NCBI GenBank assembly: GCA_023135255.1 | Contig: JAGLTN010000292.1 | Coordinates: 1 to 19,177 of the forward strand | Reading direction: 5' to 3' | DNA length: 19,177 bases | From: Planctomycetota bacterium | GTDB taxonomy: Bacteria; Planctomycetota; Phycisphaerae; Sedimentisphaerales; Anaerobacaceae | Shown: positions 1 to 11,751 of the stretch, piece after piece | How positions within the stretch are numbered: the stretch's first letter is position 1 | Layout of the letters: every line of letters starts with the position of its first letter | Notes under the pieces: model-generated | Seen by the model: the letters and a program-made list of their open reading frames with translations, nothing else | What the model was told of the DNA's origin: nothing | The model's database searches: none | Made by a program: the position numbers and the translations under genes

Positions 1-1149
1 AGCGGAGTAGAATCTGGAGAACAGTTGGCTAAGATTCTTAATACTAGTTTTGCTATTGTATATATATATACAGGAGGTGACCATGAAGATGAGGTACGGG
101 CAAGAGTGAAAGATAATGATTTAAAAGCATATTTTGGGAAGAGATTACACCTCTTGATGAAGGACAATGAGGAGAACTCTCATGACAGACTGATACTAGA
201 TACTCAGGGAATTTATAATGAGAATTTTTCATTTAAGTTTGGCTCCATGCTAAGAAAAACGTCAAGGGATTCCATCGAAAGTATATTAGTACGTTTGGGC
301 AACCATCAAGTTGACTTTGTAAAGCAATTCTTGGGCGACACAAAATCCCCAGAACATGATTTCAAAGAATTATTGGCAGAGAAAATAATAGAAAATATGA
401 ACGATGCTCTATGTGAAAAATTCAAGTCAAAGGAGATTGACGAAAATAAAACCAGTTCTCTCTTAGGTATAATAAAATCTAAATTTAGAGATGAAATTAA
501 ATCCTTGGATTTTGAAGACTTTCACAGCACTGGAGATAGTGGAGGTGCAGACATATCTTCATTGGTGGATCTGTGGTCATATCGGCTTTACTATTATCCA
601 CAGGACAAAACTGTTCGGATGGGTGACATTATAAAAAAAGACGAAGACTATTTTTTAGTTGTCACACCAGACTGTAATTTGGCTCGATTCTGGAAGAAAA
701 ATTTTGGTTATTTAAATCTGATACCGCTCTGGGAGATAGAAAAAGACATAGAAAAGTTCAAAGCGAGCCCGATTAAGAGGCGTAATTTTAAGGAGACAAC
801 GCCAAACTCTATGACCACTGAACCAACCGGGTATCCTGGCGGATGTTATGTGCTGCCTTATCTTAAAGATGGCAGTAAAAAGTTAAATTTCATCGTCATA
901 TCTAAAGCAATTACTAATACAGTAATTCCGCGTCTGGCTGGACCCAACGAAAAAACCGCTTTAGATTACGATGTTATCACAGACTACAACAGAGTAGCAT
1001 CTATTTCAGAGCCTTTCCTTACCCCTTTAATCAGCAACATATTAAGTGCTATACTAGGTGCCGGAACTCCCGATTACCCAAATAACATTAGTGGTAATAT
1101 CAAGGAGACTTTCGAAAAAACATGTACAGATCTATGGCTGACAACTTAA
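1..1149 (+). CDS. Receiver-like (iREC/Response_reg_2-type) conflict-system protein, 5' end missing
   Basis: The frame is open from the first base of the window, so the gene begins upstream; the TTG at 25 is only an internal codon. The first visible residues, SGVESGEQLAKIL followed by the hydrophobic strand FAIVYIYTG, look like the second half of a receiver-type alpha/beta domain. Near residue 220 is a strand ending VVTPDCNL, which I associate with the 'response receiver' family (Response_reg_2) encoded beside GHKL ATPases, cytosine methylases and Vsr in restriction or conflict islands. No catalytic motif is recognisable, so a sensing or scaffold role is an inference. The last 28 bases overlap vsr in another frame, indicating translational coupling. 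It could also be an unrelated defence protein; the family call is from memory of such loci. Confidence 0.6.
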   Translation, partial: SGVESGEQLAKILNTSFAIVYIYTGGDHEDEVRARVKDNDLKAYFGKRLHLLMKDNEENSHDRLILDTQGIYNENFSFKFGSMLRKTSRDSIESILVRLGNHQVDFVKQFLGDTKSPEHDFKELLAEKIIENMNDALCEKFKSKEIDENKTSSLLGIIKSKFRDEIKSLDFEDFHSTGDSGGADISSLVDLWSYRLYYYPQDKTVRMGDIIKKDEDYFLVVTPDCNLARFWKKNFGYLNLIPLWEIEKDIEKFKASPIKRRNFKETTPNSMTTEPTGYPGGCYVLPYLKDGSKKLNFIVISKAITNTVIPRLAGPNEKTALDYDVITDYNRVASISEPFLTPLISNILSAILGAGTPDYPNNISGNIKETFEKTCTDLWLTT

Positions 1150-1541
1150 CACACCCCCAACGCCATCTCTGTATGTCGCATAATAAAGGCAAAAACACAA
1201 GCCCCGAGATGCTTATTAGGAGGTTAGTCTATTCCTTAGGTTATCGTTACAGATTGCATAAGAAGAATTTACCGGGATGCCCTGACCTTGTGTTTTTAAG
1301 TCGTAAAAAAGTTATTTTTGTTAATGGCTGCTATTGGCATAGACACAAATGCAAAAAAGGTTATTCAATGCCTAAAACAAAGCATGCTTTCTGGCAGTCA
1401 AAGTTTAGTAAAACCATCAAAAGAGACAAACGTAACTATAAGGACTTAAAAAAACTTGGGTGGAAAATGTTAGTTGTCTGGGAATGTCAGTTGAAAAATA
1501 TAGAGACGGTTAAAGCCAAGATAGTCAATTTTTTGGAATAG
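1122..1541 (+). CDS. vsr: Very short patch repair (Vsr) endonuclease
   Basis: Vsr nicks DNA 5' of T:G mismatches that arise when 5-methylcytosine deaminates, and usually accompanies a C5-cytosine methylase. The 139-residue protein has the family layout: an N-terminal block (MADNLTHPQRHLCMSHNKGK), the catalytic aspartate in PGCPDLVF (D55), the zinc/active-site cluster GCYWHRHKC (about residues 69-77), and the later cysteine in VVWEC (C122). At the position of E. coli His64 there is Asn (VNGC), as I recall for many homologues outside enterobacteria. The ATG at 1122 has AAGGAG 14 nt upstream; the ATG at 1134, giving MADNL, fits family N-termini better, so the start is uncertain. No methylase is visible, so it is expected further left. 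Confidence 0.92.
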   Translation: MYRSMADNLTHPQRHLCMSHNKGKNTSPEMLIRRLVYSLGYRYRLHKKNLPGCPDLVFLSRKKVIFVNGCYWHRHKCKKGYSMPKTKHAFWQSKFSKTIKRDKRNYKDLKKLGWKMLVVWECQLKNIETVKAKIVNFLE

Positions 1542-1581
1542 GCAAAATTAAAATGTTGAGATATTTACGAAAACAAAACCA

Positions 1582-1804
1582 ATGACAATGCTGTTGATGA
1601 TGCTGGCAGGATGGCTAAACAGGCATCAGCAGGATGTGATTGAGTACGGCAAGGAAGGAAAATAAGATTCTACAGGAAAAACTGGGTAGCAAGCAAATAC
1701 TTCTCAATGATAGTCAAAAAATGCGATTGTCTCGCTTGGGTAAGCGTTTAGGCAGAAAAGTGTACGTCTTCATCAAAAATGAGACAAAAAGCTGTTTAAA
1801 TTAA
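1582..1804 (+). pseudogene. Frameshifted, truncated integrase-core (rve) type transposase relic
   Basis: From the ATG at 1582 the frame reads MTMLLMMLAGWLNRHQQDVI and continues to K-E, then hits a TAA at 1663. Deleting one G at 1657/1658 restores ENKILQEKLGSKQILL and then KMRLSRLGKRLGRKV. This matches, from memory, the N-terminus of a widespread integrase-core transposase family (pattern AGWLNRHQQDVIEYL..EN..L...LG.K) common in Planctomycetota and Verrucomicrobiota. After GRKV near 1763 the resemblance stops, so only about 57 residues of a protein of roughly 300 survive. It is a dead fragment between vsr and the minus-strand transport operon. It fills most of the gap 1542-1889; the rest holds nothing I can name. 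Confidence 0.6.
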
Positions 1805-1889
1805 GAGACAGTTTTGGTTCCTGTTATTAAAATTCTACCATTAAATTCTTTTCTTTCAAGCATTGTTTTTGCTTTTAATTCACCATGTT

Positions 1890-2588
1890 TTATAGAAATA
1901 TTTGTCTTAACCGTTCATCATGCCTTATTTGTTCAGGCTGGCCATCAAACACTACTTTGCCAAGTTTTATGCCGTAAACCTTATGACAGATTTTGAGTAC
2001 TTTACGTACCTTTTGCTCAACAATCAATATTGCTGTGCCTCTTTCTCTATTGACTTGCTGTATCCTTTCAAAGGCAGTGGAAATCAGATTTGGAGAGAGT
2101 CCAAGAGAAGGCTCATCGAGTAGTAATAATTTGGGTCTTGGGATTAGTGCTCGCCCTAAAGCTAACATCTGTTGCTCTCCACCGCTGAGTGTTCCGGCGT
2201 TTTGCTTCAGCCTGTCTTTCAGCATAGGGAATAATTGAAGGACATCATCAATTCTGCCAGCAAGTTCCTTCTTTTTCAGATATATGCCACCAATCTGAAG
2301 GTTTTCATTAACACTTAGCTCATCAAAAACTCTATTACCTTGCGGGCAGAATGTAATCCCACGTTTAACATTCTTGGCTGGTGTAGAGTCGTTTATACAG
2401 GAATCTTCAAAAGTGATTTTACCATCCCAGACAGGTATTAATCCGCAAATAGCTTTTAATATTGTGGATTTGCCCGCACCATTAGGGCCTATAATAGCAA
2501 CAATCTTGCCCTTACTGATCTCAAGGGATGGTCCAAACAGCACAGGCTTTTTGCCATAACCAGTATGTAGTTCATTAACTTTAAGCAT
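1890..2588 (-). CDS. livF: Branched-chain amino acid-type ABC transporter ATPase LivF
   Basis: This is one of the paired cytoplasmic ATPases that power a LivHMGF-type (HAAT family) importer. The 232 residues contain Walker A GPNGAGKST (34-42), a Q-loop CPQG (Gln83), the signature LSGGEQQ (134-140) and Walker B LLLLDEP (154-160). The switch position reads VEQK, with Gln instead of the usual His; VEQ is characteristic of LivF, whereas LivG has IEH. It is the last gene of the operon and starts 11 nt after the livG stop without a visible ribosome-binding site, so it is probably translationally coupled. No convincing terminator follows. The family is clear; the substrate cannot be read from the ATPase. 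Confidence 0.93.
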   Translation of the reverse strand: MLKVNELHTGYGKKPVLFGPSLEISKGKIVAIIGPNGAGKSTILKAICGLIPVWDGKITFEDSCINDSTPAKNVKRGITFCPQGNRVFDELSVNENLQIGGIYLKKKELAGRIDDVLQLFPMLKDRLKQNAGTLSGGEQQMLALGRALIPRPKLLLLDEPSLGLSPNLISTAFERIQQVNRERGTAILIVEQKVRKVLKICHKVYGIKLGKVVFDGQPEQIRHDERLRQIFL

Positions 2589-2599
2589 AATACATTAAT

Positions 2600-3355
2600 T
2601 CAGTCCAGATAAGCCTCTATTACTCGCGGGTCGTTATGTACTTCTTGTGGCGTACCTTCACAAATTTTCTCTCCTGCATCCATAAACACAACTCGATTGC
2701 ACACTTGCCTCACTGCTTCCAGATTATGTTCGATTATAATTACAGACTTACCTTGCTTCGGAAGATCGGTAATTATCGACAATATTTGCTCTATCATAGC
2801 GGGAGCAATTCCCGCAACCGGCTCATCCAAGAGTAGCAGGTCCGCATCTGAAACGAGGCAGCAGACCAAACTCAAAAGTTTCTGCTGACCATACGAAAGG
2901 TCAGATGCCAAGCTGTTAGTTTTCTCTGCAAGTCCAGCCTTTCCCAGTATAGAATAGGCCGCATCTTTGTTCTCAGCTTCCACCTTCCTACATCTTCCGG
3001 CCCTAAAGAATGTGTTAGCAAGATTTTCGCCGGGCTGTTTCCTAAAAGAAAGTAGTACATTTTCTAATACACTGATCTGCTTGATAAGACGCAAATCCTG
3101 AAATGTTCTTGCAACGCCCAGATTAGCAATCCTATGAGCGGGCTTCTTGTGAAGATAAACGTCACAAAATACTACACTTCCACTATCAGCAGCTATAAAT
3201 CCAGTCAAGACATTGAATAGTGTAGTTTTGCCAGCCCCATTGGGTCCTATCAGCCCAAGTATCTCACCCTTATCTAAAGAACAAGAAAAATCCACAAGAG
3301 CCTTGACTCCATCGAAATGCTTGTTCAGATTATCTATTTTAAGCCAACTGCTCAT
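2600..3355 (-). CDS. livG: Branched-chain amino acid-type ABC transporter ATPase LivG
   Basis: This is the second ATPase of the HAAT-type importer. Over 251 residues it shows Walker A GPNGAGKT (37-44), Q-loop RTFQD (Gln86), a variant signature LSYGQQ (153-158), Walker B LLLLDEP (173-179) and the H-loop IEHN (His210). The LSYGQQ signature and the extended helical insert after the Q-loop are typical of LivG rather than LivF. The start ATG shares one base with the livM stop (TAATG), which implies coupled translation. Length and motif order are normal for the family and the gene appears intact. Confidence 0.93.
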   Translation of the reverse strand: MSSWLKIDNLNKHFDGVKALVDFSCSLDKGEILGLIGPNGAGKTTLFNVLTGFIAADSGSVVFCDVYLHKKPAHRIANLGVARTFQDLRLIKQISVLENVLLSFRKQPGENLANTFFRAGRCRKVEAENKDAAYSILGKAGLAEKTNSLASDLSYGQQKLLSLVCCLVSDADLLLLDEPVAGIAPAMIEQILSIITDLPKQGKSVIIIEHNLEAVRQVCNRVVFMDAGEKICEGTPQEVHNDPRVIEAYLD

Positions 3356-4242
3356 TATTTTTTTGTGTCTTCCAATCGAAAACCATACTTACCAACTAAA
3401 CCTTGTGGCCGCCACATCATAAACGCGACAAGCAATCCGCCATATAATATTTGCCTCATGTTAGCGGCTATAGAACTCGGCATACCAACAAATCGCAATA
3501 TTTCCGGAAGCATTACAAGAAGTACAGCACCAACTACTGGCCCCCACAAGCTGCCTGCTCCGCCTATAATGACAATCGAGATTATGAAGATAGATTCCAT
3601 TACAGTAAAGCTTATAGGTTCTATGGAGCTAATGTAGTGAGCATATAAGGCTCCGGCTATTGCAGCCATACCAGAACCAATAACAAACACAGCCACCTTG
3701 TATAGTGCAACGTTCTTACCTGCAGCTAAAGCAAAAACTTCATCTTCCCTGATAGCCATCAAAACACGGCCAAATGGTGATTTAATAATACGATGACATA
3801 GCCAGAAAACAAGGATCGCAAAAGCACCGACAAGCAATAGAAACTCAAGGTGTGATGAAACCTGCCAGCCGAATATTACCGGCTGAGGTATTCCCGGCAA
3901 TCCCATGGGGCCGCCGGTAAATGAAACCCAGTTATTTAAAATACTGAAAGCAATAACTTGAAAAGCAAAAGTAGCAATAATAAAATAATGATCCTTTATA
4001 CGAAGTGAAGGGACACCCACCAACCCACCTAATAACCCGCTAATAATAATCGCACAGATAATGTTTATTACAAAAGGGCTACCTAGCTTTAACGCCATAA
4101 GAGCCACAACATAGGCTCCTATACCATAAAAAGCAGCATGAGCAATTGACAACAAACCCGTATAACCTACAATTAGGTTAAGTGACTCTGCCAGAATCAC
4201 ATAGATACCAATCAATATTAAAATATGCAGCAGATATTCCAA
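3355..4242 (-). CDS. livM: Branched-chain amino acid-type ABC permease LivM
   Basis: A polytopic inner-membrane permease of 295 residues. Landmarks of the LivM branch are the N-terminal ESLNLIVGYTGLLSIAHAAF, the cytoplasmic segment GRVLMAIREDEVFALAAG (the coupling loop that docks on the ATPase), the IIGGAGSLWGPVVGA motif and the C-terminal RPQGL. It starts with TTG at 4242, chosen because GGAGG lies 4 nt upstream on the coding strand and no in-frame ATG is better placed. The gap to the livH stop is 12 nt. It pairs with LivH to form the translocation pore. Confidence 0.92.
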   Translation of the reverse strand: MEYLLHILILIGIYVILAESLNLIVGYTGLLSIAHAAFYGIGAYVVALMALKLGSPFVINIICAIIISGLLGGLVGVPSLRIKDHYFIIATFAFQVIAFSILNNWVSFTGGPMGLPGIPQPVIFGWQVSSHLEFLLLVGAFAILVFWLCHRIIKSPFGRVLMAIREDEVFALAAGKNVALYKVAVFVIGSGMAAIAGALYAHYISSIEPISFTVMESIFIISIVIIGGAGSLWGPVVGAVLLVMLPEILRFVGMPSSIAANMRQILYGGLLVAFMMWRPQGLVGKYGFRLEDTKK

Positions 4243-4254
4243 CTGACCTCCATA

Positions 4255-5136
4255 TCATACAGTCGCACTTTTAACCTTCTTTCCAAAAAATCCTTCTGGT
4301 TTGAATAATAGGAACAAAACCAAAATGACAAAAGCAATCGCATCCTGCCATTGTGAACCAATAAACCATGCTCCAAAATGCTGAGTTATTGCAAGTAGCA
4401 ATGCAGCAAGAGCAATTCCAAGGATACTATTAACACCCCCTATTATTACAGTAACAACTCCCATCATAAAGGCATTCATTCCCATGGTTGGAGTCATGTC
4501 AACATCAATAGCAATAAGAATACCTGCTAATCCACCCAGACCAGAGCTAATTGCAAATGCCCACAAAACAACAGCATATGAGTCTATCCCTGAAACATCC
4601 GCTAAGACTGAATCGCTCGCTACCGCACGAATGGATTTGCCAATAGTTGTCTTTTTTGAAAACAACAACAAAACACCCAGCAACGCAATACTGACGACAA
4701 TCATGAGTATTTGCTCATTAGTTATATATACATCCAAGATATTGTGCCCTCTCTTAACTGGCCAGCTACATAGGCTTTTAGGGGCATCTAGCCAAATTAA
4801 TGAAATTAGATTTTGCAGCACTAAATAAATACCAAGTGAAGCCACCAGCATTTTCGTTGAGGATGCCTTTCTTTTTTGCAATGGTTTAAATATTAGCAAG
4901 AACACTGTTATTGCTATTATCGCGGTAATAGCAACAGAGAATGGAATGACTATGAAGATGTTCCAAGCCAATTGCTTTTTAATTTCAAAAGCCAGATAGG
5001 CGCCTAATGCTATTATTGCGGCATGAGACATATTTAAGAATTTACGTGCCGAGTACATAAAATAATATGAATATGCGACAACTGCATATATCGAAGCAGC
5101 GTATATTACATTAATAATTAGTTGCATCAAATTCAT
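4255..5136 (-). CDS. livH: Branched-chain amino acid-type ABC permease LivH
   Basis: A polytopic inner-membrane permease of 293 residues, partner of LivM. Visible landmarks are an N-terminal membrane segment, SHAAIIALGAYLAF in the first third (the livH/livM 'SLAHGA' position), the coupling helix KSIRAVASDSVLADVSGID, the VIIGGVNSILGIALAALLL motif and the C-terminal FKPEGFFGKK (RPQGL-like). It begins 12 nt after the radical SAM stop. It is the first permease gene of the operon, giving order livH-livM-livG-livF downstream of the binding proteins and the radical SAM gene. Confidence 0.9.
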   Translation of the reverse strand: MNLMQLIINVIYAASIYAVVAYSYYFMYSARKFLNMSHAAIIALGAYLAFEIKKQLAWNIFIVIPFSVAITAIIAITVFLLIFKPLQKRKASSTKMLVASLGIYLVLQNLISLIWLDAPKSLCSWPVKRGHNILDVYITNEQILMIVVSIALLGVLLLFSKKTTIGKSIRAVASDSVLADVSGIDSYAVVLWAFAISSGLGGLAGILIAIDVDMTPTMGMNAFMMGVVTVIIGGVNSILGIALAALLLAITQHFGAWFIGSQWQDAIAFVILVLFLLFKPEGFFGKKVKSATV

Positions 5137-5148
5137 TACCAGCTTTTT

Positions 5149-6573
5149 CTAAATATCATATTTCATCAGATTAAACTTGCGTACTTCACTCAACTCTTTC
5201 TTCGCCATATCAGTGGTTTCAGGTTTTACATATTGTGTCAAGGAGGATGGTAATTGGCATATTTTTTTATAGAATTTCGTTATCAGCTTCCGCAATTCTC
5301 CATCTGGATGTGTGTAGGGGGATGGTATAGCGGTAAAATCCAAATTTTGAAACAATACTGGATTTTTTATAAACCGATTTACAACTTCTTCATTTTCTTT
5401 ATTTCTCCAGCCATCATTGCCTGGAGCAATGTCTTTAGCGATGTGAGGCCTGATTAATGCTCCATATTCCTCAGACATATCTCTTGAGAAATCATATGCT
5501 AGCTGTAATGATTTCTCATTGTCATACTTATTGTAGCCAAAAACCATTAACATTTCTGTGATTAAGTTATATTCATTTTTTGAAACAACCATAGCTTTAA
5601 TGCATTCAGATTTTGTTTGTGGTTTACGTGTTTCTTTCCATATCTCTGGAGTTGCTCCATCGATCCCAAATCCAATTCGATACAAACCAGCTTCAATCAT
5701 TTGTAAAATAATTTCAGGACTTGACTTGTGAACCTTCAAAAACGACCGGACATTCGATAAAGCTCTCATGTTTATTGAGAAACCAGGATAGTTTTTTCTC
5801 AATTGAATTATCCGTTCAGCAAACATCTTCACATTCGCAGGATTTTGAAACAGATCCAAATTTGATAAATAAAGATCGAGTTTCTTAATACCAAAGCCTA
5901 TCGCTTTGTTTACTAGGTATCGCATATCATTATATGCAACATCCAAGTTCCTGTATATTTCTTTGTTGTTTATTACTTTGTTGTTAATTGGATCGTGTAT
6001 GCTTCTGCTTGCAGTGCAAAAACTGCATGCATACTTACACCCTTGTGACAAATAGAACCCAAACTCTGTATTAAGATATAATCGCATATACTTATCTGAT
6101 AATTGGGAATAAGCAGGGATCAAAGACAATTCACTTATTTTCTTTCCCGCCCCCACCTCTGCCCCTATTGCTTCCATTAGCACTTCAACTTTATTTCCGT
6201 TTATTGTGTTGGAGCCAAATAATTGTTGATGTTGTTTAGCGGATAATCCTGAAGCAACTTGTCCTCCGATTATTAGCAGAAAATTCTTGTTATATGTACT
6301 TTGTAGAAACTTAGTATATGCAATTGCGGTGGGGATATAGGGCGGTCCCAGTAAATTAATACCAATGACGGGGTGGGTGTAATTATGTGTTTCAATGTTT
6401 TCGTCCGATACTGAGACGTCTATTCCTGAATTCAAAATAATTGTTGCCGCTGCTAGCAATGAAGTAGGCATGTAAATGTGACCTAACGGTTCATTCCCAG
6501 GATCTGGTGCATAAATATGCCTGGGTTGGATTAGAGATATTCTATCTATCTTTGTAGTGGTTAATACGCTCAT
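5149..6573 (-). CDS. Radical SAM protein with B12-binding-like N-terminal domain
   Basis: The 474-residue protein has two parts. Residues 1-150 look like the Rossmann-type cobalamin-binding domain of class B radical SAM enzymes (MPTSLLAAATII, IDVSVSDENIE, VIGINLLG, FLLIIGGQ). The canonical DxHxxG histidine motif is not visible, so cobalamin, if bound, would be base-off without that ligand, or is not bound. Residues 175-400 form the radical SAM barrel: the cluster motif CKYACSFC (Cys179, 183, 186; CX3CX2C) and a later strand IGFGIDGATPEIW. The reaction and substrate are unknown. It sits inside a Liv-type import operon, 5 nt after the second binding-protein gene and 12 nt before livH, so it probably acts on the imported compound or a product of it. 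Confidence 0.85.
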   Translation of the reverse strand: MSVLTTTKIDRISLIQPRHIYAPDPGNEPLGHIYMPTSLLAAATIILNSGIDVSVSDENIETHNYTHPVIGINLLGPPYIPTAIAYTKFLQSTYNKNFLLIIGGQVASGLSAKQHQQLFGSNTINGNKVEVLMEAIGAEVGAGKKISELSLIPAYSQLSDKYMRLYLNTEFGFYLSQGCKYACSFCTASRSIHDPINNKVINNKEIYRNLDVAYNDMRYLVNKAIGFGIKKLDLYLSNLDLFQNPANVKMFAERIIQLRKNYPGFSINMRALSNVRSFLKVHKSSPEIILQMIEAGLYRIGFGIDGATPEIWKETRKPQTKSECIKAMVVSKNEYNLITEMLMVFGYNKYDNEKSLQLAYDFSRDMSEEYGALIRPHIAKDIAPGNDGWRNKENEEVVNRFIKNPVLFQNLDFTAIPSPYTHPDGELRKLITKFYKKICQLPSSLTQYVKPETTDMAKKELSEVRKFNLMKYDI

Positions 6574-6578
6574 GTCAT

Positions 6579-7757
6579 CTAGTAGTTAGTGAACCGTTCT
6601 AACTTCCCCCCTTTTATTTCATACACAAAATAAACTCCTTCTTCATTTTCACCGTGTGGACTGAAACCATACCTCCCTGCTTTACCAAAAAAGCCTAAAT
6701 CCTTCTTGTTGTTTGCAATTAAGTTTCGTACACCATTTCGTGTACCATCACTACGTTTAATAACTGAGGATGCCAAAGTAAAGGCATCCTCACCAATATG
6801 CTTATAAGATGGCAAAAACATGTCCTCTTCTGTAAACTCTGCTGGAGAGAGAATGAAAGCCCTTCCTGTATACTTTGAAATATTAGAAAGGAGAGAAGTG
6901 ACCAAGCACCCATCCGTAAAGATTATTGGGACTGATATGTCAAGTTCTGATATCTGATCTAAGAAAAGTAAACCATGATGTGAAACACCCACATAAACTA
7001 TGACTTCGGGGTGTTTGCTTTCAGAAGTCCATTTAACAATACTGTTATAAAAAGAGTTGGTAGGGCCTATTAATTCTTCGATAACAATCGTGCCTCCCTT
7101 TTTCCTCACTTTATTTGCAATATCTCTCAATAGATTTATAGAATATGATTGATTATCCTCGTCTCCGTAAATAGCAACTTTCCTATTCGTTGCCAACTTA
7201 GACACCAAACGTTCTATGGCGTCCGATTGTTTGCCATTATGTGGGAGCATCCTTAGTACAGCCTTGTAATCTACAGATTCAGCCTTTTTCAGAAGAGTTT
7301 CGTCTGTAGCTATTGGAATTATGAATGGCACTTTATTGTTTGAAGCCATTAAAACATCTAGATTTATACTAGTTAAAGTGCTATTGGAGTTGCCAATTAT
7401 AAGGATGCAGTTATCATCAGAATTCAGTTTTTCAGAAACTATGGCCGTCTTCTCTTTGGACAAAAAATCCTCTTCATATCTAATCTGAATCTTATCATTA
7501 TTTTTGGACGAAAAATAATGTTTACCTTTCTCCATCCTGGCATGATTAAATCCATCAATGAAGTCTTTTGGAATATCAAAATCAATGGTTTTGGTGGATA
7601 CTAGCACAGCAACATACGGCTCAGATTCAAAGAATGCCTTTATCTTATCCCACGATGCTGAAACGACTAAGCCGACTATAGTGCCAATAACCATAGCACC
7701 TATCCAAAGTAATTTTCGGCGTAATTTAATATATTTTTTCAAATCAGATATTTTCAT
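6579..7757 (-). CDS. Second periplasmic-binding-protein-like (Peripla_BP_6/ANF receptor) protein, membrane-anchored
   Basis: A 392-residue protein with a basic N-terminus, one hydrophobic segment (about residues 16-33, LLWIGAMVIGTIVGLVVSAS) and then a bilobed alpha/beta domain of the type-1 periplasmic binding fold (strands CILIIGNSNST, PFIIPIAT, KVAIYGDED, VIVYVGV, VPIIFTDGC). No lipobox cysteine is present, so it is probably tethered by the uncleaved segment. It is clearly diverged from the other binding protein upstream, keeping the fold but little sequence. The start is supported by AGGA 6 nt upstream. It may bind a second ligand, or be a sensor or accessory subunit of the same transporter. 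The family assignment is by fold pattern and is weaker than for its neighbour. Confidence 0.75.
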   Translation of the reverse strand: MKISDLKKYIKLRRKLLWIGAMVIGTIVGLVVSASWDKIKAFFESEPYVAVLVSTKTIDFDIPKDFIDGFNHARMEKGKHYFSSKNNDKIQIRYEEDFLSKEKTAIVSEKLNSDDNCILIIGNSNSTLTSINLDVLMASNNKVPFIIPIATDETLLKKAESVDYKAVLRMLPHNGKQSDAIERLVSKLATNRKVAIYGDEDNQSYSINLLRDIANKVRKKGGTIVIEELIGPTNSFYNSIVKWTSESKHPEVIVYVGVSHHGLLFLDQISELDISVPIIFTDGCLVTSLLSNISKYTGRAFILSPAEFTEEDMFLPSYKHIGEDAFTLASSVIKRSDGTRNGVRNLIANNKKDLGFFGKAGRYGFSPHGENEEGVYFVYEIKGGKLERFTNY

Positions 7758-7781
7758 GATATCCTAATCCATTCTGTATCG

Positions 7782-8918
7782 TCAATTGACTGCTAAATCA
7801 TAGGGAATAAATTTGCCATCTTGTACAACATACACAATGTAATCTCTATTTGCTTCCCAGCCAGGACGATTAGGATCACCTTCATTCTCAAAGTGCATCA
7901 TGCCAGTTAATGAATTGAATTCATTCGACTGAAGATATTCTATTACTTCTTTCGTGGTGTTACTTGAACTGGAATTGATAGCCTCCATCATTATGAGTCC
8001 ACTTTCGTATCCATAACACGCAAAAATATCTGGTTTGGTATTATTGTTCTTTTTTAAATATTGTTTTTCAAACTCCAAATATATCTTTGACTGATAGTCA
8101 ACGGGCATCATTGTTAACAAGAAACCTTCAGAGGCTTCGCGAGCTGATTCAATAAGTTTTGGAGAGTAAGTTCCATCTGTGCCAATAAACACAGCATTAT
8201 AATTAATCTGCCGAGCTTGTTTTAATATTGTTGCAGTTTCTATATAATTGCCTGGAAGAAATACAAGATTGACCGCTTCGTTCTTAAACTTCAACAGCAA
8301 ACTTCTAAAATCATTTTGGCCTTCTTGGTATGCTTGGCTATAAGTTTCATTTTTAAACAATTTCAGGAAAGTATGTGCAATGTTTACTCCATAATCGTTC
8401 TGCTTAAACAAACAACCAATCTTTTTATCATCAAAATTATTTTTGATAAAGTTGACAATTCTGTGCGTTTGTTTTTCATTTCGAGGGGATATCATAAATA
8501 TGTTTTCGCCTATACATTTGATTCGGTCACCTGTAGCAATTGGTACCATCAACACTCCGTTTTTGGCTTGTATTCTTGGACCAATTTCATACGTTACTGA
8601 AGATGTTGCATCGCCAATAAAATACTTTACCTTGCTAAAGAACAGTTTTTCCAAAGCATTTATTGCTGTGCGTTTATTAGCCATTGAATCTTCATAAATA
8701 AAATCAAAGTTTTTGCCCTTTTCAGACCCACTAGCAAGTTCCAATCCTCTCCTAAGGGATTGGCCGTATGTAGCAACTTCTCCCGTCAAAGGTATAATAA
8801 CTCCTATGTTAATGACTGTCGTGTCCTCCTTGCGTCCATGTGAAAAGATGGCAATTGTTACTATTGTTATCACAACTATAATCACAACGACAATACCAAC
8901 CCATATCTTTTTAATCAT
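7782..8918 (-). CDS. LivK-type substrate-binding protein of the ABC importer
   Basis: The 378-residue protein has a long hydrophobic N-terminal segment (about residues 5-25) and then a Peripla_BP_6 domain: INIGVIIPLTGEVATYGQS is the classic first strand of LivK-like proteins, followed by RRGLELA, IGDATSSVTYEI, VLMVPIATG, FMISPRNEKQT, IGCLFKQNDYG, VFIGTDGTY and near the C-terminus GWEANRDYIVY. No lipobox cysteine is present, so it is either released after signal cleavage or stays anchored. GGGAGAT upstream supports the start at 8918. The ligand-pocket Ser/Thr pattern is family-like but does not define a ligand; amino acids, amides, urea and aromatic acids are all known for the family. It is the second gene of the operon, 19 nt after the regulator. 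Confidence 0.9.
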   Translation of the reverse strand: MIKKIWVGIVVVIIVVITIVTIAIFSHGRKEDTTVINIGVIIPLTGEVATYGQSLRRGLELASGSEKGKNFDFIYEDSMANKRTAINALEKLFFSKVKYFIGDATSSVTYEIGPRIQAKNGVLMVPIATGDRIKCIGENIFMISPRNEKQTHRIVNFIKNNFDDKKIGCLFKQNDYGVNIAHTFLKLFKNETYSQAYQEGQNDFRSLLLKFKNEAVNLVFLPGNYIETATILKQARQINYNAVFIGTDGTYSPKLIESAREASEGFLLTMMPVDYQSKIYLEFEKQYLKKNNNTKPDIFACYGYESGLIMMEAINSSSSNTTKEVIEYLQSNEFNSLTGMMHFENEGDPNRPGWEANRDYIVYVVQDGKFIPYDLAVN

Positions 8919-8937
8919 TTCTGATCTCCCATTTAGA

Positions 8938-9132
8938 TTATTTACTCTGCCCTAATTTATTTTGTAATTCTTCGATTTGTTTCATTGCCAATGGAAAAGG
9001 CAAGCCTTCTCCGTTCTCCCAATGGTTGACTGTTGAAAAAGTGACACCAACCTTAGCTGCAAATTGCTCCTGGGTCAGTCCAAATGCAGTTCGCAGTTTT
9101 TTAACTATTTTGGGAATATCTTTATTTTTCAT
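8938..9132 (-). CDS. Small XRE-family helix-turn-helix regulator
   Basis: The 64-residue protein is one Cro/CI-type HTH domain: KIVKKLRTAFGLTQEQFAAK followed by VGVTFSTVNHWENG, then a short C-terminal helix. The start at 9132 (MKNKDIPKI) is chosen over an in-frame ATG at 9189 because the latter lies inside the predicted -10 box, so it could not be on the mRNA. AAGG lies upstream of the chosen start. It is the first gene of the operon with the importer and radical SAM genes, 19 nt before the first binding protein, so it is likely to control this operon, including itself. Confidence 0.85.
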   Translation of the reverse strand: MKNKDIPKIVKKLRTAFGLTQEQFAAKVGVTFSTVNHWENGEGLPFPLAMKQIEELQNKLGQSK

Positions 9133-9160
9133 ATTACCAACCTTGGCCAACAGACCTAAA

Positions 9161-9175
9161 TAGATATAACATCTA
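9161..9175. promoter_or_regulatory. Candidate operator of the XRE regulator (inverted repeat)
   Basis: A perfect inverted repeat TAGAT-N5-ATCTA lies just downstream of the predicted -10 box, at about +3 to +17 of the transcript. Position and size suit a dimeric XRE repressor acting on its own operon. Arms of 5 bp are short in AT-rich DNA, so chance is possible. Confidence 0.4.
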
Positions 9176-9184
9176 ATATAAGGA

Positions 9185-9213
9185 ATCATATATGAGCTTA
9201 ATCAACACGTCAA
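9185..9213 (-). promoter_or_regulatory. Sigma70-type promoter of the XRE-binding protein-radical SAM-liv operon
   Basis: On the minus strand a TTGACG -35 box (9213-9208) is separated by exactly 17 nt from a TATGAT -10 box (9190-9185). Predicted transcription starts near 9178, leaving a leader of about 46 nt before the regulator ATG at 9132. Confidence 0.7.
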
Positions 9214-9274
9214 GGCCTTTTTTGAAGCCATTAACCACTCTTTTGATTATTATCGTCTTGCCAGCAACTGATAT

Positions 9275-9295
9275 AATGGCATAAATTTAGCCATT
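9275..9295. repeat. Inverted repeat between the RHH gene and the liv-operon promoter
   Basis: The arms AATGGC and GCCATT are perfect 6-mers around a 9-nt AT-only centre. It lies about 60 bp upstream of the operon -35 box and about 90 bp after the RHH stop. It could be a distal operator site or a weak hairpin ending the RHH transcript; no U-tract follows on the minus strand. The rest of the 9214-9386 gap shows no gene. Confidence 0.3.
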
Positions 9296-9386
9296 GTATT
9301 TTATACCGCTGTTAGCTAAAACTCAAGCCTTGTATTTTTGCCTTTGTGAGTACCATAAATGATTTTTCCTCTCGCGAACACACCTT

Positions 9387-9767
9387 TTAATGGCCTGTTT
9401 TTATTTGTGGTTCTACTTTTAACTTTCCGAATGGTCTTTTTGTGTTTTTATACAAGCAAATTCGAAGAAGCAGTACCGCTGGTAGCCCTGTTTGTCGCCG
9501 GGCGTAATTTAACCGACCAATAACATTGTCATCTAGTGGCACTCGTACCAGCTTGTCAGCCTTGATCTCCCCCTTCAAACCGAGTTCTCGTAATGACTCA
9601 ATTAGTGGTATAAGTTCAGTATCCAAAGCTTCATCAACAATCCAACGCGAAGACTTCTTTTCATGTTTACCCAATTCCTTAACTTTGTCCCAAAGTCCAT
9701 TTGGCAACTTAACAGTACGATGGAACATTGGTAAGCGGTCTTCTATTGAACAATTATTTTCATTCAT
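9387..9767 (-). CDS. Tandem ribbon-helix-helix DNA-binding protein
   Basis: A 126-residue protein with two ribbon-helix-helix-like units. The first is RTVKLPNGLWDKVKEL followed by a helix SSRWIVDEALDTEL (about residues 17-50). The second is DKLVRVPLDDNVIGRLNYAR followed by PAVLLLRICLY (about residues 70-103). Each unit has the short beta-strand plus two helices of the MetJ/Arc fold, so one chain could make its own pseudo-dimer. The ATG at 9767 is preferred over one at 9818 because AAAAGGA lies about 9 nt upstream and the longer start falls inside the TTGACA box. It is transcribed toward the liv operon but has its own upstream signals. Its target is unknown; autoregulation or control of the island is inferred. 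Confidence 0.6.
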   Translation of the reverse strand: MNENNCSIEDRLPMFHRTVKLPNGLWDKVKELGKHEKKSSRWIVDEALDTELIPLIESLRELGLKGEIKADKLVRVPLDDNVIGRLNYARRQTGLPAVLLLRICLYKNTKRPFGKLKVEPQIKTGH

Positions 9768-9812
9768 TTCGGAATTCCTTTTATTTTTTAAAAAAGCACA
9801 CCGAAAATTCTT

Positions 9813-9837
9813 TGTCAATATTCCATCTTCGGAATAT
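9813..9837 (-). promoter_or_regulatory. -35 box and overlapping inverted repeat upstream of the RHH gene
   Basis: On the minus strand TTGACA (9818-9813) is a consensus -35 box; the -10 region is poor (T-rich, no clear TATAAT). The inverted repeat ATATTCC-N6-GGAATAT (9818-9837) abuts and overlaps it by one base. Part of it, TTCGGAAT (9828-9835), recurs at 9768-9775 next to the start codon, and GGAATAT recurs at 9853-9859. Repeated sites like these suit an RHH repressor. Confidence 0.45.
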
Positions 9838-10029
9838 GAGTTTGAACATTTGGGAATATCCTAAAACCTTTTGGGGGCTTCACGGTAAGGGATGGATAAT
9901 TAGATATGTCCTACGAGATGCTCAGGAAGGTATTTCCTGTTTGTTCCCTTGGACAGAAAACCCATTATGGCTATTCTGGGGCCACTCGACATCTCAGGTG
10001 AATCCGGACAATTATGGCTAAGTGTGAAA

Positions 10030-10065
10030 GCCAAGCTCGGCGCCAAGTTAGGCGCCAAGTCGTTT
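10030..10065 (+). repeat. Three 12-bp direct repeats in gene-poor DNA
   Basis: GCCAAG recurs at 10030, 10042 and 10054, exactly 12 bp apart, in the units GCCAAGctcGGC, GCCAAGttaGGC and GCCAAGtcgTTT. One plus-strand frame reads AKLGAKLGAKSFVKVP and a stop at 10078. This may be the tail of a decayed gene or an iteron-like tract near the island end. The surrounding 9838-10140 contains no ORF that I can recognise. Confidence 0.4.
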
Positions 10066-10149
10066 GTAAAGGTGCCATAAATTTCTACTGAAATGTGGGT
10101 TTACGATATCTCGAAGGCCATTTTGTGTACATTTTAATGGAACAAATTA

Positions 10150-10196
10150 ACAGATTTCTAATCCGTAGGTCACAGGTCCGAGTCCTGTCAGGCGTA
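10150..10196 (+). other. 3' half of a tRNA-Arg(UCU) gene: putative attR of an integrated island
   Basis: Seen in sequence: anticodon loop TTTCTAA with TCT as anticodon (10157-10159), 3' anticodon strand TCCGT, variable loop AGGTC, T arm ACAGG-TCCGAGT-CCTGT with a perfect stem, acceptor 3' strand CAGGCGT and discriminator A (10196). The 5' anticodon strand ACAGA pairs with one mismatch. No D arm and no matching 5' acceptor strand (ACGCCTG) are present upstream, so it is not a functional tRNA. CCA is not encoded. A tRNA 3' half followed by a tRNA-style terminator is the expected remnant on the chromosomal side of an element integrated at a tRNA 3' end. Bases 10155-10196 are the likely core. Confidence 0.65.
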
Positions 10197-10198
10197 GT

Positions 10199-10250
10199 GC
10201 TGTAACTTTTTGTAAGTCATTGATTTTACAAGGCGTTACAGCTTTTTCTT
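10199..10250 (+). terminator. Rho-independent terminator after the tRNA-Arg remnant
   Basis: The arms GCTGTAAC (10199-10206) and GTTACAGC (10235-10242) pair perfectly, with a further inner stem TTGTAA/TTACAA (10210-10215 with 10226-10231), and TTTTTCTTTT follows. The T-tract is only on the plus strand, so it serves the former tRNA gene rather than the leftward Sel1 gene. The stretch 10251-10455 holds no recognisable gene. Confidence 0.75.
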
Positions 10251-10455
10251 TTGGTGCTTGGGCAAAACTGCATTTGCTGTATTTTGCTGGGATTTGATGG
10301 GGTTTTTACTAAAATTCGCACTAAAATTTTCAGGCACATCACAAGTCCCAGTTTTAGCTATTTTTCTTCTTTTACTGCTCGGCAAACCAGACCCTCGGTA
10401 ATTTTTGACAAGTACAGGCGGTATGGTTTTAAGAAAAAACAAGTTGGTTTAGTTT

Positions 10456-11751
10456 TTACTGCTGTTGCTTGATTTTTTCTATTTTGTCGATGAGTTTTTT
10501 CGCAGCTATTTGGGCGGTTCTTATCTGGTCTTTTGACATTTGTGATTTCAGGTCTTGTTTTAATTTTTGGACGTCGTAGCCATTGATACCTGCGAGCAAT
10601 GCGAATTTATAAGCTTCAACGTTATTTTTCGGCAGACCTGTTGCCTGGAAGTACATAATCGCCAGTCTGAATTGCGCTTTTGTGTTTCCCTGTTTTGCAG
10701 CTTTTAGATACCATCTAGCGGCTTCTTCGGGGTCAGCGACAACGCCCTTTCCCTGGTCGTACATATAGCCGAGGTTGTATTGCGATTTTTCGTACCCCGA
10801 TTCAGCGGCTTTTCGGAACCATTTCACCGCTTGCAGATAATCTTTTTCAACTCCCCATCCAGAGGCATAGTTTACACCGAGGTCGGATTGTGCCGGCGGG
10901 TATGCCTGCATTGCTGCTTTTAAGTATAGCTTGGCAGCCTCGCTGTGGTCCTGAGGGACACCTGCGCCGGCAGCATAGTTTGCTCCGAGGTTATATTGAG
11001 CAAGTGCGTAACCGGCGTCTGCTGATTTTCGATACCATTTACATGCCTCTTTCAAATCCTGTTTGCAGCCTTGAGCATAGGCGTACATATTACCAACGAG
11101 GAATTGAGCGGCGGCATCGCCCTGCTCAGCAGCTTTTTTGTACCAGAGTAATGCCTGAGCATAGTCTTGTTTTACTCCCTGACCGCCATAGTAACTGCAT
11201 GCAAGAAGATATTGGCCTGTCGCGTATCCTAAATTCGCAGCTTTTAGATACCATTTTATCGCCTGCGTGTAATCTTTCTTTACGCCGATCCCGAGATCGT
11301 ACATACCGGCAATTGCACATATGGCTGGCCCGTGGTTTTGCCTTGCCGATTTAATATATAAATCTATCGCTTGGGTAAAGTTCTGTTCTACTCCTTCGCC
11401 ATCGGCATACATTGTTCCGAGGAGAAACTGAGCTTGTGCGTGATTTTGCTGAATGGCTTTTCGAAGCCAGTATATTGCTTTTGGCAGATCCCGCTCGACT
11501 CCTATTGCCTGGGCATACATTGTGCCGAGCATAAACTGTGCATCTGCATGACCCAGGTTGGCAGCTTTTTTGTACCATCTCATTGCTTCTGCAAAATCCT
11601 TGTTTTTCGCGTAGGTACTGCCGAGTTTGTACTGCGAAGCTGGATCCTGATTTCTGGCTGAGGTGATAAGGTCTTCTAAAGATTGCTCTGCTAATGCAAA
11701 TGAGGTGGTGAACAATAGAATAATAATTACAGTGATTGATCTGAATTTCAT
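10456..11751 (-). CDS. Secreted Sel1-repeat (TPR-like) protein
   Basis: A 431-residue protein with a cleavable signal peptide (MKFRSITVIIILLFTTSFALA, cut expected before EQ) and then about ten 36-residue Sel1 repeats from about residue 36 to 395. Each follows the pattern A.AQ..LG..Y..G.GV..D...A..WY.KAA..G (for example EGVEQNFTQAIDLYIKSA, QGVKQDYAQALLWYKKAA). The C-terminal tail is Lys/Gln-rich. Sel1 solenoids mediate protein-protein contacts, often in envelope assembly or signalling. It is divergent from an exopolysaccharide operon, so a role in regulating or assembling that glycan is plausible but not shown. No terminator is obvious downstream. Confidence 0.9.
   Translation of the reverse strand: MKFRSITVIIILLFTTSFALAEQSLEDLITSARNQDPASQYKLGSTYAKNKDFAEAMRWYKKAANLGHADAQFMLGTMYAQAIGVERDLPKAIYWLRKAIQQNHAQAQFLLGTMYADGEGVEQNFTQAIDLYIKSARQNHGPAICAIAGMYDLGIGVKKDYTQAIKWYLKAANLGYATGQYLLACSYYGGQGVKQDYAQALLWYKKAAEQGDAAAQFLVGNMYAYAQGCKQDLKEACKWYRKSADAGYALAQYNLGANYAAGAGVPQDHSEAAKLYLKAAMQAYPPAQSDLGVNYASGWGVEKDYLQAVKWFRKAAESGYEKSQYNLGYMYDQGKGVVADPEEAARWYLKAAKQGNTKAQFRLAIMYFQATGLPKNNVEAYKFALLAGINGYDVQKLKQDLKSQMSKDQIRTAQIAAKKLIDKIEKIKQQQ

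Follow-up and report, generated by a model that had tools for sequence, protein, structure and literature searches.

According to the Islander paper, genomic islands are defined by an intact tRNA gene together with a displaced tRNA fragment, and a table in that paper lists 125 'Tandems >= 2' (PMC4383910). Additionally, a review of archaeal recombinases likens the anticodon loop and stem to the 7-bp overlap and core of lambda attB (PMC8371274). This likeness and the Islander definition are the basis for the exchange in the anticodon loop proposed below. Similar to the Islander-class islands at anticodon-centred 'A' sites (PMC4383910), the locus described here has a distal tRNA 3′ fragment broken at the anticodon stem-loop and, in some relatives, tyrosine integrases beside the intact tRNA; it differs in that the distal end is the only end in hand. 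It is also similar to tandem island arrays in one tRNA gene, as two element ends meet at one 3′ fragment, but erosion has reduced the right-hand member here to an integrase tail without definable limits. Each member of a tandem has its own fragment and integrase; here, one fragment is in hand, with one integrase tail to its right. Among the matches listed for planctomycete islands, no title or abstract opening describes such a junction.

The window, that is, the whole stretch of 19,177 nucleotides analysed, is one contig (C215) in full, from a MAG of 644 contigs and 2.85 Mb with a completeness of 83% and a contamination of 4%. The assembly ends at position 1 of this contig, with no sequence further left. 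The GC content is about 0.34–0.43 left of the tRNA scar versus 0.39–0.47 right of it, a modest difference only. In this study, we propose that 10149–10196 is probably the scar of an attachment site in tRNA-Arg(UCU), flanked by two different integrative elements, designated A (left) and B (right).

The tRNA-Arg(UCU) fragment and its terminator

The fragment at 10149–10196 (plus strand) comprises the anticodon stem-loop, variable loop, T arm, and 3′ acceptor strand of tRNA-Arg(UCU). ARAGORN, alignment to relatives, and folding all agree with the earlier note, which had described a 3′ half without D arm or 5′ acceptor strand and with a terminator directly after it. In the tRNA search proposed there, ARAGORN reported 0 tRNAs in the whole window, and Rfam gave 0 matches at the gathering score. 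No intact fold was obtained over 10120–10196, which folds no better than its shuffles (z 0.23), versus z −2.92 for the intact tRNA of a relative (L069). The fragment is displaced and reaches the tRNA 3′ end, as in the island definition; no ORF of at least 60 aa lies over it, and it therefore overlaps no conserved protein domain.

Identity to the relatives begins at 10149–10154 with the 5′ strand of the anticodon stem, which reads AACAGA in the window and AACGGA in intact genes, and continues from the anticodon loop through the variable loop, T arm, and 3′ acceptor strand to 10196. As read from the alignment, the anticodon-stem pair 29–41 is A·C in the window and not G-C. Before 10149, the window has other sequence in place of the D arm and 5′ acceptor strand: GAGC-AACGGATTTCTAATCCGTAGGTC... 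is read at the 26 intact loci, and the window shows unrelated sequence to 10148 followed by AACAGATTTCTAATCC.... The remnant had previously been taken to start at 10155; this position is in the loop and does belong to the remnant, but the shared block starts about 5 nt earlier. The loop itself, TTTCTAA at 10155–10161 (plus strand), is the probable 7-bp overlap region of strand exchange, judged by its position in the tRNA and by a locus of genome G094 (L102) in which identity with the tRNA starts at the anticodon loop.

The intrinsic terminator of the tRNA follows at 10197–10248 (plus strand), with a hairpin stem at 10199–10242 (z −5.23) and a T run after it. In two relatives, G029 and G078, the terminator is kept after an intact tRNA-Arg, and identity extends through it at 86% and 85% to 10244 and 10248, respectively. 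No integrase was found in the 19.9 and 12.9 kb fetched around these two loci; G029 has its own repeats downstream of the tRNA, likewise with no integrase.

Using 10140–10260, we searched 99 genomes (98 besides the window's own) and examined the best 29 non-self loci (L031–L059). ARAGORN called an intact tRNA-Arg(tct) at 26 of the 29, while the remaining three (L036, L042, and L043) are, by inspection of the alignment, 3′ halves as well. The match to the tRNA-Arg(UCU) of relatives is far beyond chance, with a core identity of 87–96% across the 29 loci and E values of 9.3e-27 and 1.8e-25 for the two loci whose match includes the terminator and 1.2e-15 to 5.4e-11 for the remaining 27. The integrases of these same loci were used to build a profile, which was then run on the loci at E 1e-3. 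A facing tyrosine integrase, or part of one, lies within 1.5 kb downstream at 7 of the 26 intact loci (L033, L037, L039, L052, L054, L055, and L059) and also at the half-only locus L042; the integrase of L057 points away from the tRNA, and the other 18 intact loci have none there. PF00589 was found in all six integrase ORFs given to Pfam (L101, L121, L075, L086, L072, and L074). Integrase pieces also occur on the tRNA 5′ side in L041, L054, L055, and L058, which the two-element model leaves unexplained. One contig of genome G009 (L082) carries both an intact tRNA and, about 7.9 kb away, a 3′ half, with similar DNA after both copies; after the first copy, this DNA encodes an integrase fragment. 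The G009 arrangement thus points to repeated integration at this tRNA elsewhere too. Collectively, tRNA-Arg(UCU) is an integration site in frequent use in this group.

The 3′ half, the intact relatives, and the frequent use of the site uphold the earlier interpretation of the scar as the product of a tRNA-targeting element. A deletion could also yield a lone 3′ half, leaving a degenerate tRNA pseudogene with no integrase involved, and the window holds no intact integrase. We find this origin scarcely credible, as the break lies at the anticodon stem-loop, as in the scars L042, L074, and L102, and the scar is flanked by an arm-like repeat and an integrase tail. In the MAG, with its 83% completeness and 13 tRNA matches, neither an intact tRNA-Arg(UCU) nor a 5′ half was found. 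The 17-nt loop region is otherwise matched at only four places in this genome, with 3 mismatches each, versus six for the reversed control pattern.

The left side: proposed element A

We assign 1–10148 to element A up to its right end, as identity to intact loci stops at 10149 and the radical-SAM cargo lies here; the left extent is presumed. A direct repeat revealed by the repeat scan at 10039–10060 (plus strand; GGCGCCAAGT twice, period 12) provides candidate arm-type integrase sites of element A. In genome G096 (L147), TCGGCGCCAAGTTTGGCGCCAAGTCGCTTGT, which is nearly the window's sequence, lies upstream of a tRNA-Arg(UCU) 3′ half; the distance from the repeat end to the half is about 60 nt there, compared with 88 nt in the window. 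The left motif and this right end have 10 nt in common. ARAGORN's call at L147 is read as false because its 5′ half departs from the family sequence.

No second place in the window's own genome carries the GGCGCCAAGT repeat within 3 mismatches. Exact searches of 397 genomes, including the window's own, with the looser pattern GCGCCAAG-N4-GCGCCAAG gave 33 places in 27 genomes; the reversed control gave 11 in 9. Thirty loci were returned, one of which is the window, and the other 29 were examined (L134 and L158 overlap). An ARAGORN tRNA lies within about 300 bp at eight of these (L138, L142, L143, L145, L147, L149, L151, and L153) and an integrase piece within 400 bp at L141, while 20 have no tRNA or integrase close by.

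At the right ends of L147 (G096) and L074 (G015), a common ORF extends from the antisense tRNA, with a (S/N)DLAxxLA motif and a WPxLPE motif in both; the window keeps only a few residues of an ORF of this type (NDLAPNLAPS). When the window was compared to the fetched loci, no shared right-end DNA was detected at E 1e-4, and a looser comparison of 9001–10160 gave one match, 26 nt at 85% (E 0.33), which is the repeat at the left of L074.

By family, the left genes encode a Vsr, a Liv-type transporter run with two binding proteins, and a radical-SAM protein. At 1890–8918 (minus strand), the Liv-type transporter genes, the radical-SAM protein, and the two periplasmic binding proteins form a one-strand run. 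For the radical-SAM protein, the contig search found no related locus, and 247 other genomes contained no close homologue; distant radical-SAM matches occur in 7 of the 247 (best 9.0e-7, 25% identity). The left genes may be cargo, and the evidence for this is the radical-SAM protein without close homologues. Defence genes had also been proposed on this side, and Vsr was confirmed; the ORF beside it at 25–1149 has no match in Pfam, PADLOC, NCBIfam, or PHROGs. A short repeat at 1759–1837, also present in contig C11 and in G009 (L082 15637–15713), is perhaps the end of an insertion sequence.

According to the local integrase profile, no window ORF of at least 40 aa is an integrase. Elsewhere in the MAG, nine integrase matches lie on nine contigs, and ARAGORN found tRNA-Arg(UCU) with none of them in the stretches fetched. 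The integrase end of element A, searched for by the left motif, was not found in this genome. Contig C334, with an integrase at one end, was considered as the left end of element A and rejected, because it starts with the 3′ end of another tRNA. The intact tRNA-Arg and the element A integrase would lie further left. That the DNA directly left of the scar is the right end of an element, as previously claimed, agrees with the arm-like repeat in common with G096 and with the radical-SAM cargo.

The right side: integrase remnant and mosaic

A minus-strand ORF at 10236–10442 (68 aa) includes AKTGTCDVPENFSANFSKN...; this sequence aligns with the C-terminal part of a tyrosine integrase of G094, identified as Planctomycetes bacterium GWF2_41_51 (100% protein match; integrase contig MHXZ01000135.1). 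The G094 integrase ORF of 510 codons lies beside an intact tRNA-Arg(UCU) and is 58% identical to the window's tail over 43 columns. With PF00589 in this relative, we assign 10269–10358 (minus strand) to the eroded C-terminal tail of a tyrosine integrase of element B. In a search of 248 genomes with the tail, four, own included, gave matches at E <= 0.01, with G094 the best (1.4e-9). G073, which is taken to be Planctomycetota MohnsGC08_bin191 and holds a 49% relative, gave two weaker matches: one (0.007) lies in a 503-codon integrase ORF beside tRNA-Lys, and the other is interrupted by stops. The match in G176 has no tRNA nearby.

The window and GWF2_41_51 are alike in the C-terminal tail sequence, the repeat motif, and the position and strand relative to the tRNA. 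In the window, 73 nt separate the tail from the tRNA 3′ end, and in G094 the spacing is 82 nt; in both, the tail is on the strand opposite to the tRNA. In contrast, the GWF2_41_51 integrase extends into the antisense of the tRNA, whereas the window keeps only 30 tail codons. In GWF2_41_51, the integrase adjoins Cas9 and Cas1 genes (Pfam); at L101 150–4937 (G094 contig C135), a 120-aa ORF between Cas9 and Cas1 is taken for Cas2. The stretch 10269–10358 comprises only what follows the catalytic domain of PF00589, and the local integrase profile is not significant on the 68-aa ORF (E 0.09, score −2.3); it is thus a remnant and not a gene. Because the 68-aa ORF is a mosaic, with residues 11–28 corresponding to a 55-bp stretch identical to contig C104, the tail claim is limited to 10269–10358. 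Within the tail, a second direct repeat from the repeat scan (ACTAAAATT twice, period 12, 10308–10328, plus strand) provides candidate arm-type sites of element B.

These observations bear on a simple attR, with one element on the left, native chromosome on the right, and the integrase-like tail a chance or unrelated ORF. The terminator kept after the intact tRNA-Arg of G029 and G078, with no integrase in the DNA fetched, is in its favor. However, the integrase matched by the tail is placed and oriented in the same way next to tRNA-Arg(UCU) and has a repeat in common with the window, and we consider a simple attR improbable.

Adjacent to the tail, the 55 bp at 10359–10413 are 100% identical to C104:1893–1947, inside a CsgG-like gene, and reflect a rearrangement or misassembly. 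Following this, 10417–10568 is 93% identical to contig C457, which carries a complete PEP-CTERM ORF; in the window, the last 12 codons of such a gene, including the stop, occupy 10417–10452 (plus strand) next to the Sel1 gene. Sel1 is too repetitive a gene to serve as evidence of synteny. A word length of 55 is common in assemblers. Exact identity to C104 over just this length, followed by the C457-like stretch, could mark an assembly chimera at or near 10359–10413, with the Sel1/glycosyltransferase side foreign to the tRNA locus. A real short duplication is possible instead, and both window ends are free of such identity to other contigs, so that a chimera seems somewhat unlikely to us. It would be compatible with the two-element reading, which rests on 10039–10358. 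The mosaic right of the tail may be a rearrangement or a misassembled join. The earlier note had taken the right side for plain host flank and the scar for the organizer of the whole window; this is not supported, as an integrase-tail remnant with a different repeat, the C104-identical stretch, and a cut-off PEP-CTERM end follow the terminator.

Repeat motifs and proposed serial integration

Exact direct repeats with a period of 10–14 were collected up to 200 bp from each of 21 cores, one in the window and 20 elsewhere. At the chance level, 4% of random 200-bp segments reach at least 9 nt and 11.4% at least 7 nt (1000 trials each). The longest run common to the left and right window motifs is 3 nt. 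The right motif, however, shares 18 nt with the G094 right end (L102) and 11 nt with the G094 integrase side. The repeats are candidate integrase arm sites.

Integrase-side and 3′-half motifs of the same genome agree over 13 nt in G015, 10 nt in G066, and 11 nt in G094, whereas the pairing is poor in two of the five genomes, with 5 nt in G096 (weak) and 2 nt in G009 (none). Two of 120 permutations, the observed one included, reach this pairing; the tie arises because the G009 integrase side carries the G015 motif. As the five pairs were chosen after the motifs had been seen, the pairing is suggestive and not a blind test. The G009 integrase-side motif has one mismatch, was missed by the exact scan, and was entered by hand, and the G096 right end was taken from the GCGCCAAG pattern search and not from the repeat scan. 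L073, L085, L105, L054, L059, and the left repeat of L074 were left out of the pairing count. L073 has a repeat and no integrase-side partner fetched, while the 3′ halves L085 and L105 have no repeat on the left. L054 and L059, with facing integrases, have no right repeat but one upstream of the tRNA.

Two further observations concern repeats of this kind. Upstream of the 3′ halves in L071, L073, and L084, from three genera, the right ends are alike over 150–200 bp (78–80% identity), and the period-12 repeat variant differs in each despite the similar right ends. A second scar, at L098 (contig C457) 6508–6552 (minus strand), is a 3′ half resembling tRNA-Arg(CCU) and is preceded by ACTAAAATTTGTACTAAA, a repeat of the type on the window's right side.

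The order of right end, 3′ half, and integrase has the look of attP and recurs in G015:C347 (L074). An attP-like junction of one element, in circular form or in head-to-tail copies, would place its own right end on the left and its own integrase end on the right. We judge this very improbable: the integrase is truncated, and the window's two motifs share only 3 nt, in contrast to G015, G066, and G094, where the motif of the integrase side matches that of the right end. So short a common run argues against a single element flanking the core on both sides. As for G015:C347, the left repeat of L074 (CGCCAAGCAACACGCCAAG) differs from its right repeat, and this locus therefore looks like a second hybrid junction.

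The window thus holds a 3′ half, a native-type terminator, an integrase tail, and two different repeat motifs. The absence of a common run above 3 nt between the motifs argues for serial integration by two elements with different integrases. In the two-element reading, element B, with a GWF2_41_51-type tyrosine integrase, would first have been located directly 3′ of the tRNA, and its arm sites and integrase tail would have remained. Element A, whose arm sites differ, would later have entered the same tRNA by exchange in the anticodon loop (10155–10161). Its insertion would have moved the old 3′ half, the terminator, and the B integrase tail away from the tRNA 5′ half. Such displacement would produce the order seen in the window: the right end of A, the 3′ half, the terminator, and the eroded left end of B. 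We infer this order of events, as well as the strand exchange in the anticodon loop, from the arrangement of the sequences.

The locus is a tRNA scar of an ordinary kind that is unusually readable. It corrects a tempting reading, as a tRNA 3′ half alone does not tell which side is host. More tentatively, within this group of planctomycetes tRNA-Arg(UCU) might be a docking hub common to several integrase lineages, each with a private period-11/12 repeat at both element ends, one at or inside the integrase coding tail and one at the far end; the window would then be a hybrid junction of two lineages. The repeat pairs flanking the att core suggest a simple way to match island ends in fragmented genomes, and, if the hub model is true, such an 'arm code' could pair the ends of islands that are split across draft genomes.
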